From: Actinoplanes sp. NBC_00393
Lineage (GTDB): Bacteria; Actinomycetota; Actinomycetes; Mycobacteriales; Micromonosporaceae
DNA: 64,000 nucleotides
Reading direction: 5' to 3'
Assembly (NCBI RefSeq): GCF_036053395.1
Contig: NZ_CP107942.1
Coordinates: 4,864,501-4,928,500 of the forward strand
The notes below the pieces were generated by a model. That model saw only the letters and a program-made list of their open reading frames with translations. It made no database searches and had not been told where the DNA came from. Below, in pieces: positions 39,828-61,200 of this stretch; within the stretch, counting starts at the first letter, position 1, and each line of letters opens with the position of its first letter. Both the position numbers and the translations under genes were made by a program.

Positions 39828-39890
39828 GCCGCCGACGTTACCGGCTCGCGGGCCCGAAATCCCGGCCCGCTCACCGATCCGGCACAGCCC

Positions 39891-39986
39891 CGGCCGGCCG
39901 CGACTCGGGCATGCGGCCGGCCGGGACTCGGGCATGCGGCCGGCCGGCCGGGACTTCGGCAATGCGGCCGGCCGGGGCTCGGGCGC
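39891..39986. repeat. Four-copy GC-rich tandem repeat
   Basis: The unit CGGCCGGCCGGGACTCGGG plus CATG (23-28 bases) occurs four times with small variations in the intergenic DNA between the small acidic gene and the cupin gene. The repeated CGGCCGGCCG cores are self-complementary and can form hairpins, perhaps ending the cupin transcript. Confidence 0.7.
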
Positions 39987-39990
39987 GGTT

Positions 39991-41199
39991 TCAGCCCGCC
40001 GGGACCAGCAGGCCCTCGGTGAGCAGGCGGCGGGCCAGCACGAGACGGTCGGCGTCGTCGTCCAGCGGCAGGTCGCCGACCGCGTGCGCGTCACCGTCCA
40101 GGGCGGTGCGCACCGCCGGCCCGCAGTAGGCCGGAAGCTGCAGCTCGCGACCGGTGAGCCGGAGTGTCACCTGGTCCGGGCCGTCGGCGAGCTGCCATTG
40201 CAGCCCACCGCGGGCGATGATCTTGTCGGCCGGGGTGAGCGCCGCCGCGAAGTCGAGCTGGGCCAGCGGACTGATCGGTGCGGGCCGGGCCGACGGCCAG
40301 GAACGCTCGCGCAGGCGGGCGGCGACCGCGGCCGGGTCGGCGGTGTTCAGCCAGTCCCGCAGCGCGGTCACCGTCTCGGCCAGCTCCGGCCCGATCGCGT
40401 CCGGGTCGGCGACGTCCAGGCCGTACGGCAGGGTGGCGCGCAGCCGGGGATCCTCCATGGCGAGCGTGAGCAGTTCCTCGACCAGGGCGTAGCGGGTCAG
40501 GCCGCGGATTCCGACGGTCAGGTGCAGCGACCGGCCGCCCAGCGCCTTCGCCGAGTGCAGCCAGCCGCGCGGCAGGTAGAGGGCGTCGCCCGGTTCGAGG
40601 ACGACGTCGAGGGCCGGTTCGCCTTGTGCGGTGGCGGCGACCTCGTCGGCCCGGCCGCCCCAGGCCTGCTTCTCCAGCGGGTCGGGCAGCACCGGCGGGT
40701 GGATGCACCACTTCTTGCGGCCGTCGACCTGCAGCACGAAGACGTCGTGGGTGTCGTAGTGGGTGGCGAAGCCCTGACTGGCCGGCGGGGTGAGGTAGGC
40801 GTTCACCTGCAGCGGCCGGTTCAGCTCGGCGCCGAGCGCGCCGGCGAACTCGATCAGCGGCGGCCAGAGGCGGTGCAGGCCTTGCAGGACCAGGGTGGCG
40901 CCGTCGGCGTACAGGCGCATCACCTGCTCGTCGTGCACCTGGTCGGCGATTTCGGCGCCGGCACCCCCGCCGCCGGTGAACCGCCCGGCCGGCAGCACCG
41001 TGCCCTGCCGGGCCACCCGCAGGAACGGGGTGCGCAGCCCGCGCCGGCTGAGCAGCTCGTCGACGGCGGCCGGGCCGAGCAGGTCGGTGAAGCCGTCCGG
41101 GCCGCCGAGGTCGGCGGCCCGGGTCAGCACCGGTTCGCGTCCCCAGCGGGCGGCGAACTCGGTCGGGTCCAGCGCAAGGACGCGGGACAATGCGGTCAT
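39991..41199 (-). CDS. Cupin/JmjC-type 2-oxoglutarate Fe(II) oxygenase
   Basis: A 402-residue protein of the Cupin_4/JmjC group that includes bacterial ribosomal oxygenases. Iron ligands: H-x-D in 'GFATHYDTHDVFVLQ' (about residue 145-150) and the distal His in 'LYLPRGWLHSAKAL' (about 213). 'GRKKW' supplies a likely 2-oxoglutarate-binding Lys. The C-terminal 150 residues form a helical/winged-helix-like region as in YcfD-type enzymes. The ATG overlaps the TGA of the repeat-peptide gene (41199-41201), so the two are coupled, which suggests the peptide is its substrate. Confidence 0.9.
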   Translation of the reverse strand: MTALSRVLALDPTEFAARWGREPVLTRAADLGGPDGFTDLLGPAAVDELLSRRGLRTPFLRVARQGTVLPAGRFTGGGGAGAEIADQVHDEQVMRLYADGATLVLQGLHRLWPPLIEFAGALGAELNRPLQVNAYLTPPASQGFATHYDTHDVFVLQVDGRKKWCIHPPVLPDPLEKQAWGGRADEVAATAQGEPALDVVLEPGDALYLPRGWLHSAKALGGRSLHLTVGIRGLTRYALVEELLTLAMEDPRLRATLPYGLDVADPDAIGPELAETVTALRDWLNTADPAAVAARLRERSWPSARPAPISPLAQLDFAAALTPADKIIARGGLQWQLADGPDQVTLRLTGRELQLPAYCGPAVRTALDGDAHAVGDLPLDDDADRLVLARRLLTEGLLVPAG

Positions 41200-41459
41200 C
41201 AGCCCGCGCTGCCGTCGGCGCCGCCGTCGTGGCCCTGCGGGTTGGCGCCGCCGTCGGCCGGGCCCTCGCCGGAGGCGCCGCCGTCCGCCCCGCCGTCGAC
41301 CGCGTTCGGGTTCGCGCCGCCGTCCGCCGGGCCCTCGCCGCCGGCCCCGCCGTCCGCGCCGCCGTCGTGGCCCTGCGGGTTGGCCCCGCCGTCGGCCGGG
41401 CCCTCACCGGCCGAGCCGGCCGGATCCGAGCTGATGATCTCCTGGTCGCTGAGTCCCAT
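41199..41459 (-). CDS. Repeat peptide (3 x 23 residues), putative oxygenase substrate or RiPP-like precursor
   Basis: 86 residues. A 17-residue N-terminal part (MGLSDQEIISSDPAGSA) is followed by exactly three 23-residue repeats, each beginning GEGPADGGANP and continuing QGHDGGADGG or NAVDGGADGG. There are no gaps and nothing after the third copy. It is rich in Gly, Ala, Asp and Asn, with two His; no Cys, Lys, Arg or aromatic residue. A GGAGGGG ribosome site precedes the ATG. The stop overlaps the start of the JmjC/cupin oxygenase. I know of no described family; a hydroxylated peptide or structural repeat protein is inferred. Confidence 0.85.
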   Translation of the reverse strand: MGLSDQEIISSDPAGSAGEGPADGGANPQGHDGGADGGAGGEGPADGGANPNAVDGGADGGASGEGPADGGANPQGHDGGADGSAG

Positions 41460-41541
41460 GACCCCTCCTTCGTACGGTTCGCGCCTGTCCTACCCGGGTT
41501 GATCACGTCTAATCCGGAACGGCCCGGGGTATCCCGGCGGC

Positions 41542-42330
41542 ATGCTGTGGATCGGGACATCGGGCTGGCAGTACCGGGACTGGCGACCGGACAAGGGTGC
41601 GGACGACACCGGCTACCTCTACCCGGGCGGGCTGCCGCAGCGGCTCTGGCTGGAGCACTACGCCGACCGGTTCGACGTGGTCGAGGTGAACAACGCCTTC
41701 TACCGGCTGCCGGAGCGCAAGACCTTCGTCCAGTGGCGGGAGCGCACCCCGGACGGGTTCCGGTTCGCGGTGAAGATGAGCCGGTACCTGACCCACATCA
41801 AGCGGCTGCGCGAGCCGGCCGAGCCGGTGGCGCGTTTCCTCAACCGGGCCGAGGGGCTCGGCGACAAGCTGGGGCCGGTGCTCCTGCAGCTACCGCCGAC
41901 CCTGCGGGCCGATCTGGACGCGCTGGACGAGACGCTGCGGCAGTTCCCCGCCGGGGTGCGGGTGGCGGTCGAGCCGCGGCACGCCACCTGGTTCACCGCC
42001 GAGTGCGAACAGCTGCTGAAGCAGCACGGCGCGGCGCTGTGCTGGGCGGATCGCTGCGGGCGGCCGATCACGCCGCTGTGGCGTACGGCGGACTTCGGCT
42101 ACCTGCGGCTGCACGAGGGTGCGGCCCGTCCCTGGCCGAGGTACGGCAAACGGGCGCTCACGTCGTGGCTGGACCGTTCCGGCGTACCGGAGATGTTTGT
42201 CTTCTTCAACAACGACCCGGGCGGCGCCGCGGTGATCGACGCGGGTGTGCTGGCGGCGGAAGCCGCCCGCCGTGCGATCAAGATCACCAAGGTTCCGTCG
42301 ATCAGCCCTCGCCCTCCAGCAGCTCGATGA
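41542..42330 (+). CDS. DUF72 domain-containing protein
   Basis: A 262-residue TIM-barrel-like DUF72 protein ('MLWIGTSGWQYRDWRPDKGA', 'FDVVEVNNAFYRLPERKTFVQW', 'FRFAVKMSRYLTHIKRL', 'GPVLLQLPPTL', 'VAVEPRHATWF', 'YLRLHEGAARPWPRY'). Length is normal. The last 29 bases overlap the end of the convergent second DUF72 gene. The function of DUF72 is not established. Confidence 0.92.
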   Translation: MLWIGTSGWQYRDWRPDKGADDTGYLYPGGLPQRLWLEHYADRFDVVEVNNAFYRLPERKTFVQWRERTPDGFRFAVKMSRYLTHIKRLREPAEPVARFLNRAEGLGDKLGPVLLQLPPTLRADLDALDETLRQFPAGVRVAVEPRHATWFTAECEQLLKQHGAALCWADRCGRPITPLWRTADFGYLRLHEGAARPWPRYGKRALTSWLDRSGVPEMFVFFNNDPGGAAVIDAGVLAAEAARRAIKITKVPSISPRPPAAR

Positions 42331-43178
42331 GGGTGCTCGCATTGCGCTGGGCATAATCGCGGTAACAGTTGTTGAGAACTGCATGGGTGACGTCGGTCTC
42401 ATCGGCGAGCGAGCGCAGTTTCGGAACCCATTCGGCGAGTTCGGCCTCGGAATAGCGATAACCGAACTTCTCGTGGATGTCCTTGCTGGTCCACTTGTCG
42501 CTGTGCCCGTGGAATCGGACCACCGCGACATCGGCGGTGGCCTCCGGCAGCGGCGGCACCGACGACTTGTGGCCCTGCGGCATGTCGACGCAGACGTAGG
42601 GCAGCCGGTGCGCCCGCAGGAACTCCAGGGTCTCCTCGCGATTGCCGCCTTCGAACCAGCTGGCGTTGCGGAACTCGAAGACCGGCCGCAGCGGCTTGCA
42701 CCGGGCGGTGACCTCGAGCAGATATTCCTTGTTGGATCTGCGGATGCCGAACCACGGCGGGAACTGGAAGAGCAGCACCCCCAGCTTGCCGGCCGCGGCC
42801 AGCGGGTCCAGCGCGCCGAGGAACCGGGTCCAGACCTCCTCGTACGCCTGCGGCGGCAGATCCTGTGGGTAGACGTTGGCCTTGCCGGTCTCCGGCCGCA
42901 GGTCCTTGTAGAGCGCGGACACCTTGGTCGGGTGGCCGGTCAGCAGGCTGAACGCCTTGATGTCGAAGGTGAAGCCGGCCGGCGTGCGCTCGGCCCAGAG
43001 CCTGGTGGTCTGCTCGTTGGGCGGGCCGTAGTAGGTGGCGTCCACCTCGACGACCGGGAAGTGTCTCGCGTAGTGCGCCAGGCGTTTCTCCGGGGTGTCC
43101 GCCCCCCTGCGGGTACCACCCCGAGGCGAGCAGCGTCTTGTCGGTCCACGACGCCGTGCCGACCCGGATCTCGCCCAT
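42302..43178 (-). pseudogene. Second DUF72 gene, interrupted by a +1 frameshift
   Basis: The N-terminus MGEIRVGTASWTDKTLLASG and WYPQG are read in one frame, and the rest (from about 'VEVDATYYGPPNEQTTRLWA' to the stop at 42302) in another. Dropping one base from the C6 run at 43102-43107 (plus strand) joins them into an intact DUF72 protein of about 291 residues (...ADTPEKRLAHYARHFPVVEVDATYYG...). Either a sequencing slip or a real disruption. It differs clearly from the neighbouring DUF72, so this is not a recent duplicate. Confidence 0.85.
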
Positions 43179-45135: not shown

Positions 45136-45324
45136 CCCCCAGAATTTGCTGCGGCAAGCGAATACAACTGATCACTGTGCGTAAAGCGGGGACGATATTT
45201 CCCGTCGGCCGTTGCGCGGGTCAAGTCACCAACCACAGTGTGGGAAACACGTTCCAAAATGTTCACGGTCACACAAATGCATTCCCGGAACGGTTTCTGT
45301 CAGCCTCATTAAAGGTTGCCGAAC

Positions 45325-45813
45325 ATGGGTAGCCATCAGCCCGTGACCGAGCTTGATGCCGAGACGATTGCCTATGCCCATCGCATGTTCGACCTCGCGC
45401 GCTCCGGCGCGACCGGGGAACTGGCGGCCCAGGTGGCCGCCGGACTGCCGGCGAACCTGACCAACGACAAAGGAGACACGCTGCTGATCCTGGCGGCCTA
45501 CCACGACCACCCGGAGACCGTCGCCGCTCTCCTGGAGCTCGGGGCGGACCCGGAACGGGTCAACGACCGGGGCCAGACGGCGCTGGGCGCGGCGGTGTTC
45601 CGGCAGAACCCGGAGACGGTGAAGACGCTGCTCGCTGCCGGCGCCGACCCGGACAGCGGGGCGCCCACGGCGGCCTTCTTCGGCCTGCCGGAGATGGCGG
45701 CGCTGCTGGCCGGGGGCGCTGCCGCGGCAACGCCCCCGGAGAAGACGGCAACGCCGCCGGAGAAGACGGCAACGCCGCCGGAAAAGGCGGCGACGCCGCC
45801 GGAGAAGAACTAG
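45325..45813 (+). CDS. Ankyrin repeat protein with TPPEK tail
   Basis: 162 residues. It has two to three ankyrin repeats (about 45-130: 'NDKGDTLLILAAYHDHPETV', 'NDRGQTALGAAVFRQNPETV', 'FFGLPEMAALL'), giving a protein-binding surface. The last 28 residues are four copies of a 7-residue ATPPEK(T/A) repeat encoded by 21-bp repeats. The ATG at 45325 is preferred to the TTG at 45316. Its end overlaps the convergent secA2 end by four bases. Confidence 0.88.
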   Translation: MGSHQPVTELDAETIAYAHRMFDLARSGATGELAAQVAAGLPANLTNDKGDTLLILAAYHDHPETVAALLELGADPERVNDRGQTALGAAVFRQNPETVKTLLAAGADPDSGAPTAAFFGLPEMAALLAGGAAAATPPEKTATPPEKTATPPEKAATPPEKN

Positions 45814-58294: not shown

Positions 58295-61200
58295 TCACCG
58301 GTCCCGCCGCGGCAGCCCACTCGGCGCCGAGGAGGGGTCGTTCAGCACATCCGGCGCCGCCAGCGCCTCCGGCCGAACCACCGCGGGTCCGCGAGCCGGC
58401 AGCCCGGAAGGCGCATCCTCATCCATGAGCGGCCCCTCCCCCGCGGTGCTGCCCTGCGCCCCCTGCGGCCCCCGGCCCTGCCCCATCCCTTGCGGCTCCA
58501 TGCCCTGCTGCGCCGTTCCCTGCGGACCCGGCTCCGGAGCCGCCGGGCGGACCGGGTTGTGCTGGCCCATGTCCGGAGCCTGCAGCCGCGGCCGGCCGCC
58601 GCCTGCGGGCTGAGCCCCCAGGTTGTGCTGCCCCACATCCGGAGCCTGCAGGCGAGGCCGATCCCCGGCCGGCGACTGCCCACCGGCGTCGGCCCCGGCA
58701 TTCTGGTCGCTGAGCCCGGCGCCTTGGCCGGCACCCCGGCCAACACTCTGACTGGCGCTCTGCTGGCCGAAAGGCTGCCCCGCGCCGCCCTGCGTACCCG
58801 GAGCCTGCTGGCCGCCAACGCCTTGCAGACCCGTAGCCTGCCCACCAACGCCCGGCAGGCCTGCCTGCCCACCAGCAGCCGGCTGACCAGCGGGCTGCCC
58901 GCCAACGCCCGGCAGAGCCTGCCCACCGGGGTTCAGCTGACCGAGGTCCGGGGCCTGCAGCTTCGGACGATCGCCCACCGGCGGCTGCCCACCAAGGTTC
59001 TGCTGTCCGAGATCCGGTCCCGGCAGCGGCGCACGAGGCCCAGCCTCCGCACTCTGACCGAGCACAGCTGCCGACGGCAGGAAGCCGGCGGCTTCCCCCG
59101 CCGGAGGCATCGCCATCCCAGCAGGCGGCTGCGGCGGCGTCCCCATGATGATCTCGGTAGCCCGAGTCTGCCCACCATCACCGGCAGGCCGCGCCGACCG
59201 GGTGAATCGGGGCGCGTCCAGCGGACTGTTCTGCTGGCTGTAGAGCGGTGGCTGCCGCATCAACGCATCCAGGTCATCGCTCGGCGGCATCCCAGGCCCA
59301 GAGGCCACCGCCCCGGAGCCCACCGACCCTGACACCGACCCCATCGAACTCACCGGACCCGAGCCGGCCACCGACCCGTGGCTCCCGCCCGGCGCCCCGA
59401 TGCCTGCAGCCCCAGACCCAGCCATCCCGGCGGACATAGCCGCCCCGGCGGACATAGCAGCGCCCGGCATGGACCCGACCTGCCCAACACCGGCCGGCAC
59501 CGACCCGCCCGGCACAGCACCACCCTGTCCAACGCCCACCTGACCAGCACCGATCTGGCCAGCACCGACCTGGCCAGCACCGACCTGGCCAGCACCGAAC
59601 TGCCCAGAGCCGCCCGACCCGGAACCGGCCCCCGACGGCTCAGCATGTGCAGGCCAGGCCTGCGTAGCACCGGGCTGCCCGGATTCGGCCAGCCCAGAAC
59701 CGGCACCCGGCCGGCCGACGCCCAGTGAACCGGCTCCCGACAGATCACCCGGCTGACCGACACCCAGCCGGCCGACACCCGGCTGGCCACCGGCATCGGG
59801 CTGAGACCACGGCGGCTGGGGTTCGGAGCGCTGGCCTTCGCCCGGCGAGCCGACCGCAGGCGGCGGCACCGCACCGAAAGCGCCCGATCCGGAAGCACCT
59901 GATCCGGAAGCACCTGATCCGGAAGCACCTGAGACCGACACACCCGAACCCGACGAAGCCGTACCCGACGCAGCCGTACCCGAAATGCCTGAATCTAGAT
60001 TGCCTGAGATTGAAACGTTCGAAGCGGAAGCGCCCGATCCGGCCTCGGCCCAGGGCGTCGCGGCACCCGCCGGACCCGGTTGGCGCTCCCCGGCCGGCCC
60101 GGCGGGCCATGCTTCGGGCGCCGACGGCCCAGCCTTCCAGGGCGGCGGAGCGACCTCATTCGCAGTGGAAGCCGGCGGCGGCCACAATTGACCGATATCT
60201 CCGGCGTTCCTGGCTTCCGCCGTAGGCCATGGGAGGCCCGGCCCAGCAGCAGCCCCACCTGGCGGAGGCGGCCACGCCTCGCCGGACACCGCGGTCCCCG
60301 GCATCGGCGGCGACCAAGACTGACCCGTGCCCTCGCCGGGGATCCAACTCTGGCCGGTCGCCCCCGAAGCGACCGACTCCGCCCCGCCCGGAGCCGGCAG
60401 CGCAGTTCCGGACGCCGGCGGCGCAGTTCCGGACGCCGGCGGCGCAGTTCCGGACGCCGGCAGCGCAGTTCCGGACGCCGGCAGCGCAGTTCCGGACGCC
60501 GGCGGCGCAGTTCCGGACGCCGGCGGCGGCCAGGATTGACCAGGCACGGCCGAGTTCGGCCCGCTCGGAGCCGGCAGGACCGTCCCGGTACCCGGCGGCG
60601 GCCAAGCCTCCCCGAAGCCGGCCGCGCCACCCGCCTCGCCCGAAACGCTCCCGGCAGCAGGCCCGATCCCAGCAACGCCCGGCATGCTCGCAGCACCCGA
60701 TGCCGACCCCCGCCACGGCTCGGCCGGCTCATCCACGCTGCCGCCCGCCCGCGACGCCCGGGACTCCTCGCCCGCAGGTTCGCCCGGCACGATCCAGGGC
60801 GGCGTCGAAGCACGGACCGCCGTCGGCTGAAGGCCCTCCGGCAACGGCGGCAGCGGAACAGCCGCGCCCGCCACCGGCGGCGGTGAACCAACCCCGACCG
60901 GCGGCAACGGGGGAAGCGGCGAGCCCTCCGCCGAAGGTGGCAACGGCGGAAGATCCGGCAACCCCGACGGCAGCAGCGACCCGACCGCCGACGAAGACGA
61001 ACCAGGCAACGGCGACCCACTCGCCGACGAAGACGGACCAGGCAACGGCGACCCACTCGCCGACGAAGACGGACCAGGCAGCGACGACCCACTCGCTAAC
61101 GAAGACGAACCAGGCAGCGAACCGCTAGCCGGCGAAGACGGACCCGGCAGCGGATCAGCCTCCGGCAACTCACCCATCTCCCACGGGGCCCGGCTCCCTG

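Follow-up and report, generated by a model that had tools for sequence, protein, structure and literature searches.

What is the substrate of a ribosomal-oxygenase-type enzyme when a small repeat peptide is encoded directly in front of it? This question is raised by a locus in Actinoplanes sp. NBC_00393, located within a stretch of 64,000 nucleotides (contig NZ_CP107942.1, positions 4,864,501 to 4,928,500, from here on the window). On the minus strand an open reading frame (ORF) of 86 residues (41459-41199, stop included) is followed by one of 402 residues (41199-39991, stop included) for a JmjC-type enzyme, and the genome carries a single copy of this system. The pair is real and old, and we regard it as very likely that the peptide is in some sense the substrate of the enzyme. 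With a lesser degree of confidence, yet as the best of the explanations considered, we favour a two-gene (in many lineages three-gene) system that resembles those for ribosomally synthesised and post-translationally modified peptides (RiPPs), in which Asp residues would be hydroxylated, a domain of the enzyme resembling a RiPP recognition element (RRE) would bind the head of the peptide, and the product would contain hydroxy-Asp.

A description of the peptide as a 17-residue head, three 23-residue units and a stop had been given in the original prediction, which was made from the letters alone, and it proved to be correct. The head MGLSDQEIISSDPAGSA (41409..41459, all features of the pair being on the minus strand), with LSDQEI in the window vs LSDDDI, LNDDDI or LDDDDI in relatives, is followed by repeat 1, GEGPADGGANPQGHDGGADGGAG (residues 18-40, 41340..41408), repeat 2, GEGPADGGANPNAVDGGADGGAS (residues 41-63, 41271..41339), in which Val replaces the His of units 1 and 3, and repeat 3, GEGPADGGANPQGHDGGADGSAG (residues 64-86, 41202..41270), with the stop directly after it. 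Tandem Repeats Finder reports a 69-nucleotide period for the window with 3.0 copies, 80% matches and a score of 298, and thus the repeat is not due to chance; a scan against Pfam and NCBIfam matched the peptide to no family. The number of canonical units differs between relatives, with one unit in 1, two in 4, three in 36, four in 12 and five in 1 of the 54 ORFs of the genus set and up to six units among the 76 ORFs of the family set. At one locus (L069) the peptide is enlarged, with a run of RGADAGADVGADRGVE-type repeats inserted between normal units. The TGA of the peptide (41201-41199) and the ATG of the enzyme (41199-41197) share one base (TGATG), as had been noticed before, but translational coupling is not a defining trait of the system: an overlap with the aligned enzyme start occurs in 11 of 81 loci, all from the genus of the window, and the other 70 show a gap of 2 to 239 nucleotides, measured to the aligned start, from which the true start may differ. 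Thus, of the expectation that the repeat number varies in related genomes while head and coupling stay, the first part holds, the head stays in most relatives and the overlap does not. A head conserved in most relatives followed by a variable number of repeats recalls the leader/core pattern of RiPPs, but 17 class members have no head and the repeats themselves are highly constant.

In the genus of the window an orthologue of the enzyme (68-100% identity) is present in 51 of 60 genomes, and 48 of these loci have the head-plus-repeat ORF upstream; in one (L017) head and repeats lie in different frames, and the remaining two have less than 100 nucleotides of upstream DNA. The enzyme was found in 216 of 300 genomes and 21 of 44 genera of the family, and among 30 inspected loci from 20 genera the pattern search finds the peptide in 28, while by eye L079 has the peptide and L077 part of it. 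From the class sample 65 of 394 genomes carry the enzyme, 58 of them with DGGA-type repeats upstream and 4, as judged by eye, with a head and an Asp-rich tail, so that the peptide, which ends at most about 180 nucleotides ahead of the aligned enzyme start, accompanies the enzyme in 62 of 65; homologues consistently lacking the peptide, which the original prediction had named as a finding against itself, are not what the class contains. Of the 296 genomes in the phylum sample 40 gave a match, 27 of them from outside the class; many of the distant matches extend over no more than the first 170 profile residues. A head with an Asp-rich tail, scored by eye, is present in 17 of the 19 loci inspected from 19 of these 27 genomes; of the other two, one is cut by the contig end (L242) and one has a different repeat ORF (L245). 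Both inside and outside the class we thus find what is expected for a RiPP system, a small precursor gene in conserved linkage with an enzyme of a peptide-modifying type. Organisms named among the best 80 loci include Actinoplanes, Paractinoplanes, Micromonospora, Salinispora, Asanoa, Phytohabitans, Modestobacter, Blastococcus and Actinokineospora, and the best 120 of 339 protein-database matches also name Mycobacterium sp. SMC-4, a Rhodococcus metagenome-assembled genome and Leifsonia. At least three D[GSA]GA motifs were found in 191 of 195 loci, the 4 misses having less than 140 nucleotides upstream, a count that spans overlapping collections in which genomes recur, and the class sample is preferred as the basis.

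The repeats also track the enzyme gene. A profile of the peptide matched none of 40 enzyme-less genomes (for family and order defined by searches that score the best 4-6 candidates per genome) and 8 of 10 enzyme-bearing genomes, always beside the enzyme, with the two misses carrying divergent DGGA repeats. At 20 loci of distant NO66-like paralogues (29-37% identity) the repeat motif was found in no frame. Two variants of the locus are worth mentioning. In L245 the usual place of the small peptide, ahead of the JmjC match, is taken by a 466-residue ORF of DGTDQGVxGGTYGPRDxS-type repeats, which may be an enlarged precursor. In L275 and L280 (genus g106) the enzyme orthologue has no repeat peptide and is preceded by an acidic ORF ending in GPTIEPGA or GPTVEPGA.

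Which residue of the repeats might be modified? The original prediction had proposed the Asn, Asp and His positions, and from these Asp remains. In 264 units from genus and family, counted with all positions free, Asp occupies three positions in 264, 264 and 259 cases, and in 664 units from 165 non-redundant ORFs in 659, 660 and 616. The first linker residue of these 664 units can be Asn (219), Thr (185) or Asp (163), and the residue preceding the second Asp His (285), Ala (154), Gln (101) or Arg (49). Outside the class the tails are of the DGTDGD, DADAAD or TDADAD type, and in 15 examples (13 of them from there and 2 from the class) Asp makes up 33.9% of the residues, Asn 0.5% and His 0.2%. 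As Asn and His are replaceable and almost gone in the Asp-rich relatives they are not general targets, and judged from the alignments the likely target shifts from Asn/His to Asp. In DGGA-type units Gly and Ala are also almost constant, according to a count of 520 units in which the second Asp was fixed by its own pattern, so that its 520/520 is uninformative. This constancy, together with the chemical versatility of JmjC/2-oxoglutarate enzymes, would fit an enzyme that modifies the peptide otherwise, at another residue or by crosslinking or desaturation, with Asp conserved for charge or metal binding. We consider this unlikely, as the DGGA-type and the DGTDGD/DADAAD-type tails have in common the Asp with small residues between, and few other hydroxylatable side chains are present in all members.

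The enzyme (39991..41199) belongs to PF08007 (JmjC_2, E 4.4e-28), with the JmjC_2 core at residues 130-234 (40498..40812), and its nearest relatives in the Protein Data Bank are NO66 (E about 1e-25), followed by MINA53, a YcfD-like protein and YcfD. H147, D149 and H215, the intact H-x-D...H iron ligands already seen in the original prediction, and K162 are invariant in 34 of 34 aligned enzymes; the 33 relatives among them are 45-88% identical to the window enzyme and NO66 about 28%. The conserved Lys we take to have a role in 2-oxoglutarate binding. The model of the enzyme shows the full-length NO66-type ribosomal oxygenase (ROX) fold including the C-terminal winged-helix domain, and the JmjC core, the HxD...H and the C-terminal domains expected of a ROX member are present. 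The C-terminal domain (residues 306-402, 39994..40284) was modelled by AlphaFold2 with a predicted local distance difference test score of 92.4, and DSSP assigns to the predicted domain strands at 30-34, 38-43 and 46-51, a helix at 52-61, a 3-residue helix at 69-71 and a helix at 77-89, with additional strands before (21-24) and after them (93-95). It structurally matches solved RREs, with 23 of the 33 non-ROX rows of the VIA list being RiPP enzymes or RREs, so the modelled domain appears to resemble RREs, and from this the RiPP-like reading gains.

The complete ROX fold could also mean that the enzyme really acts on a ribosomal protein, like NO66, MINA53 and YcfD, and that the peptide tunes it as a pseudosubstrate, inhibitor or assembly partner. 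An NP..H..GG run in some repeats is loosely similar to the uL2 loop, a likeness judged by eye only. This run is often altered, by the Thr and Asp at the linker start counted above and by Ala, Gln, Arg or Val before the second Asp in 325 of the 664 units, the tails turn Asp-rich elsewhere, and several repeated sites per peptide fit a substrate better than an inhibitor, which makes a ribosomal substrate in our view an even less likely explanation than a different modification of the peptide.

A connection between peptide and enzyme is also suggested by the head. A head matrix was built from Micromonosporaceae (leaving out L001 and L060) and the enzymes were scored by separate profiles for their JmjC and C-terminal parts. 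Among 62 class genomes a high head score goes with a high C-terminal score (Spearman 0.78, p 9e-14) and not with a high JmjC score (Spearman 0.20, p 0.11), the head being absent where the C-terminal domain is degenerate. The corresponding 2x2 table is 40/1/3/18, which omits L330, L337 and L335 (truncated frame) and includes L325, by eye without a true repeat peptide; without L325 it is 40/1/3/17. In the three rows scored as having no head with the domain intact (L095, L107, L111) a head-like run is visible by eye. A 61-row tree built from the JmjC part requires three changes and is still compatible with one, and the main headless group forms one clade of 16.

Upstream of the peptide gene we found a putative promoter with a -35-like element GGATTA (41510..41515), a 14-nucleotide spacer and a -10-like element GGGTA (41491..41495), followed by a Shine-Dalgarno-like AGGAGG (41464..41469) that recurs in the upstream strings of relatives. 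The motif G[GAT]TTA-N12-18-GGGTA is present in 45 of 53 genus, 15 of 29 family and 38 of 51 named regions, with shuffled means of 0.0, 0.05 and 0.1, respectively, and in a single one of 320 window tiles; of 21 regions in the class set only one has the full motif, and GGGTA by itself occurs in 10 of them vs 2.9 expected from shuffling. The SigB-homologue promoter SCO5555p of S. coelicolor is given as GTTAGA-N13-GGGTAC (PMC8346170) and the SigF consensus of M. smegmatis as GTTT-N14-19-GGGTA (PMC4694148). Most Micromonosporaceae thus seem to have a SigB/SigF-type promoter before the peptide, and because of this resemblance a link to the general stress response is likely in this family. Boxes for IdeR/DtxR, Zur and FurA showed no excess over shuffled sequences in 182 upstream regions, which lends no support to a control by iron. 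The promoter, and DGGA-type tails with 35% Gly that look hydrophilic by eye, would suit a hydrophilin-like, Gly-rich disordered stress protein that acts unmodified beside a merely co-regulated enzyme. We regard this as very improbable, as the peptide was undetected in all 40 enzyme-less genomes and its head covaries with the C-terminal domain of the enzyme.

The peptide ORF is most probably translated, as is indicated jointly by the codon-position pattern, the head, the start, the ribosome-binding site and the location beside the enzyme gene. When related peptide ORFs were compared in 49 gap-free pairs (80-97% nucleotide identity), 332, 359 and 1195 substitutions fell on the first, second and third codon position, respectively, a distribution typical of coding DNA. 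Of the 1507 codons that differ, 978 do so synonymously in the peptide frame; because one antisense frame reaches 872 of 1494, the synonymous share alone is not decisive. That the ORF is an untranslated GC-rich repeat or regulatory leader, for which one could cite the high G+C content, the low complexity, the repetitive other frames and this antisense value, can practically be dismissed in view of the substitution pattern and of the start, head and Shine-Dalgarno-like site that are retained over many genera. The entropy per codon position was dropped as evidence for translation, being circular for blocks selected by their amino acids.

For the RiPP-like Asp hydroxylation we propose the following model. 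The small ORF would encode a dedicated substrate with a short acidic head (LxDDDI type) and units retaining three Asp. The enzyme would act as a ribosomal-oxygenase-type JmjC dioxygenase dependent on Fe(II) and 2-oxoglutarate, its RRE-like C-terminal domain would grip the head, and the JmjC centre would oxidise Asp of each unit, most simply to beta-hydroxyaspartate, with up to 9 conserved Asp available in the repeats of the window peptide. The hydroxylated anionic peptide would probably be kept inside the cell as a stress-linked polyanion and perhaps as a metal ligand. The surface product also considered in the original prediction is not supported, as no signal peptide is visible by eye and no transporter or peptidase was recognised among the shared neighbours, not all of which are annotated.

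Several observations weigh against this model. Known ROX enzymes hydroxylate His or Arg and are not known to act on Asp. Human NO66 and MINA53 top the same structural-match list as the RREs, and therefore an RRE-likeness common to them does not single out this family. The correlation between head and domain amounts to only 1-3 tree events and is suggestive, not proof, because so few changes suffice; as 17 class members carry repeats without a head, the head is not essential. Three of the 65 class genomes have no peptide: G570 and G380, which belong to one genus, and G629, whose match is the weakest. The repeat ORFs were picked by their D[GSA]GA motifs, a bias towards Asp, although every locus of genus and family that could be assessed had an ORF with these motifs. 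Finally, no shared peptidase or exporter was recognised in the neighbourhood, taken as about 3 kb for 80 loci and 6 kb for 15 loci, a search in which the clusters are mostly unannotated and unlinked genes are outside the scope.

In many lineages a third gene joins the pair. In 12 of 15 diverse loci the enzyme gene is followed by a Suc_Fer-like gene in the same orientation, and PF06999 was confirmed in 6 of 6 tested. By tblastn it was found in 0 of 56 genus loci, 1 of 29 family loci (one more too short), 21 of 28 loci of the class set L087-L114, 9 of 75 of the named set (five too short) and 17 of 19 of the phylum set L233-L252 (one too short; L243 within the class). A PF06999 gene directly behind the JmjC gene was seen in many lineages outside Micromonosporaceae (L289-L301, for example L290:5720-6643 (-)). 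A search of the window's own genome gave no PF06999 gene, and a sequence comparison of the Suc_Fer-like protein with solved structures gave no relative at E 0.1. A possible counterpart is Apd1, which we presume to be linked to PF06999. Six aligned Suc_Fer-like proteins share C-X8-C-X23-H-X-G-G-D and in this are similar to the Apd1/Aim32-type thioredoxin-like [2Fe-2S] ferredoxins, the Apd1 motif being given as C-X8-C-X24-75-H-X-G-G-H (PMC11138216), with its last His replaced by Asp in the six proteins. As a tentative extension, which we think possible and would not yet call probable, the whole might be an ancient, phylum-wide, stress-linked system that makes poly-hydroxyaspartate peptides from Asp-repeat precursors with the winged-helix domain as RRE, the hydroxy-Asp peptide and the Suc_Fer ferredoxin might together act as an iron/redox module inside the cell, and ROX enzymes might descend from precursor-peptide hydroxylases or share their mechanism.

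The surroundings of the pair contain further features. Two DUF72 genes (PF01904) at 41542-42330 (+) and 42302-43045 (-) overlap with their 3' ends, the first being divergent from the peptide gene. Directly behind the enzyme gene (39890-39975) lies a GC-rich tandem repeat of about 3 copies with a period of 23-28 and CCGGCCGG runs; it might serve as a terminator or be a repeat element. An ORF at 45316-45813 (+) resembles ankyrin repeats by eye and has TPPEKTA-type units at its end (21-nucleotide period, 4.0 copies), and more tandem arrays with periods that are multiples of three are found at 60388-60528 (21 nucleotides, 6.8 copies) and 60969-61153 (36 nucleotides, 5.2 copies).

If the peptide is the substrate, the pair represents a widespread actinomycete RiPP-like class in which the precursor is accompanied by just one ROX-type enzyme, and the winged-helix domain that ribosomal oxygenases carry could be assigned a function. 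If true, repeated hydroxy-Asp would make the product a ribosomally encoded, tunable metal-binding polymer. With only two genes the system also makes the substrate choice of ROX enzymes directly testable.

Compared with known systems, the enzyme shares with NO66, MINA53 and YcfD (PF08007) the full-length fold with the C-terminal winged-helix, the HxD...H and the Lys. These three act on ribosomal proteins, and to our knowledge no known ROX member has been described beside a repeat peptide, whereas the clade of the window enzyme adjoins one. FIH, which hydroxylates Asn, Asp and His in ankyrin repeats, has a folded repeat protein as substrate vs the small dedicated peptide here. The original prediction knew of no described family with this architecture, and this has to be divided: the logic of RiPPs, the occurrence of JmjC enzymes in their pathways and fusions of JmjC with RRE-like domains are already known; of a dedicated Asp-repeat precursor that is paired with one ROX-type enzyme throughout a phylum a literature search found no description, with most subscription papers, supplements and bioRxiv beyond its reach. 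Fusions of JmjC (PF08007) and RRE, with bacterial homologues that stand in RiPP-like contexts, have been noted before (PMC12710340); they have the same Pfam family and RRE-like fold as the window enzyme, and in the parts of that paper considered here there is no mention of a precursor family, of repeats, of constant Asp or of an operon. The biphenomycin hydroxylase BipG/BpmG is likewise a JmjC enzyme in a RiPP pathway and was reported as an ornithine hydroxylase (PMC12707348, PMC12257519). In that pathway it belongs to a large set of tailoring enzymes, together with a multinuclear non-haem iron-dependent oxidative enzyme, a radical S-adenosylmethionine enzyme, an arginase-type enzyme, a metallopeptidase and a major facilitator superfamily protein, whereas in the system of the window the JmjC enzyme is the only enzyme directly beside the precursor.
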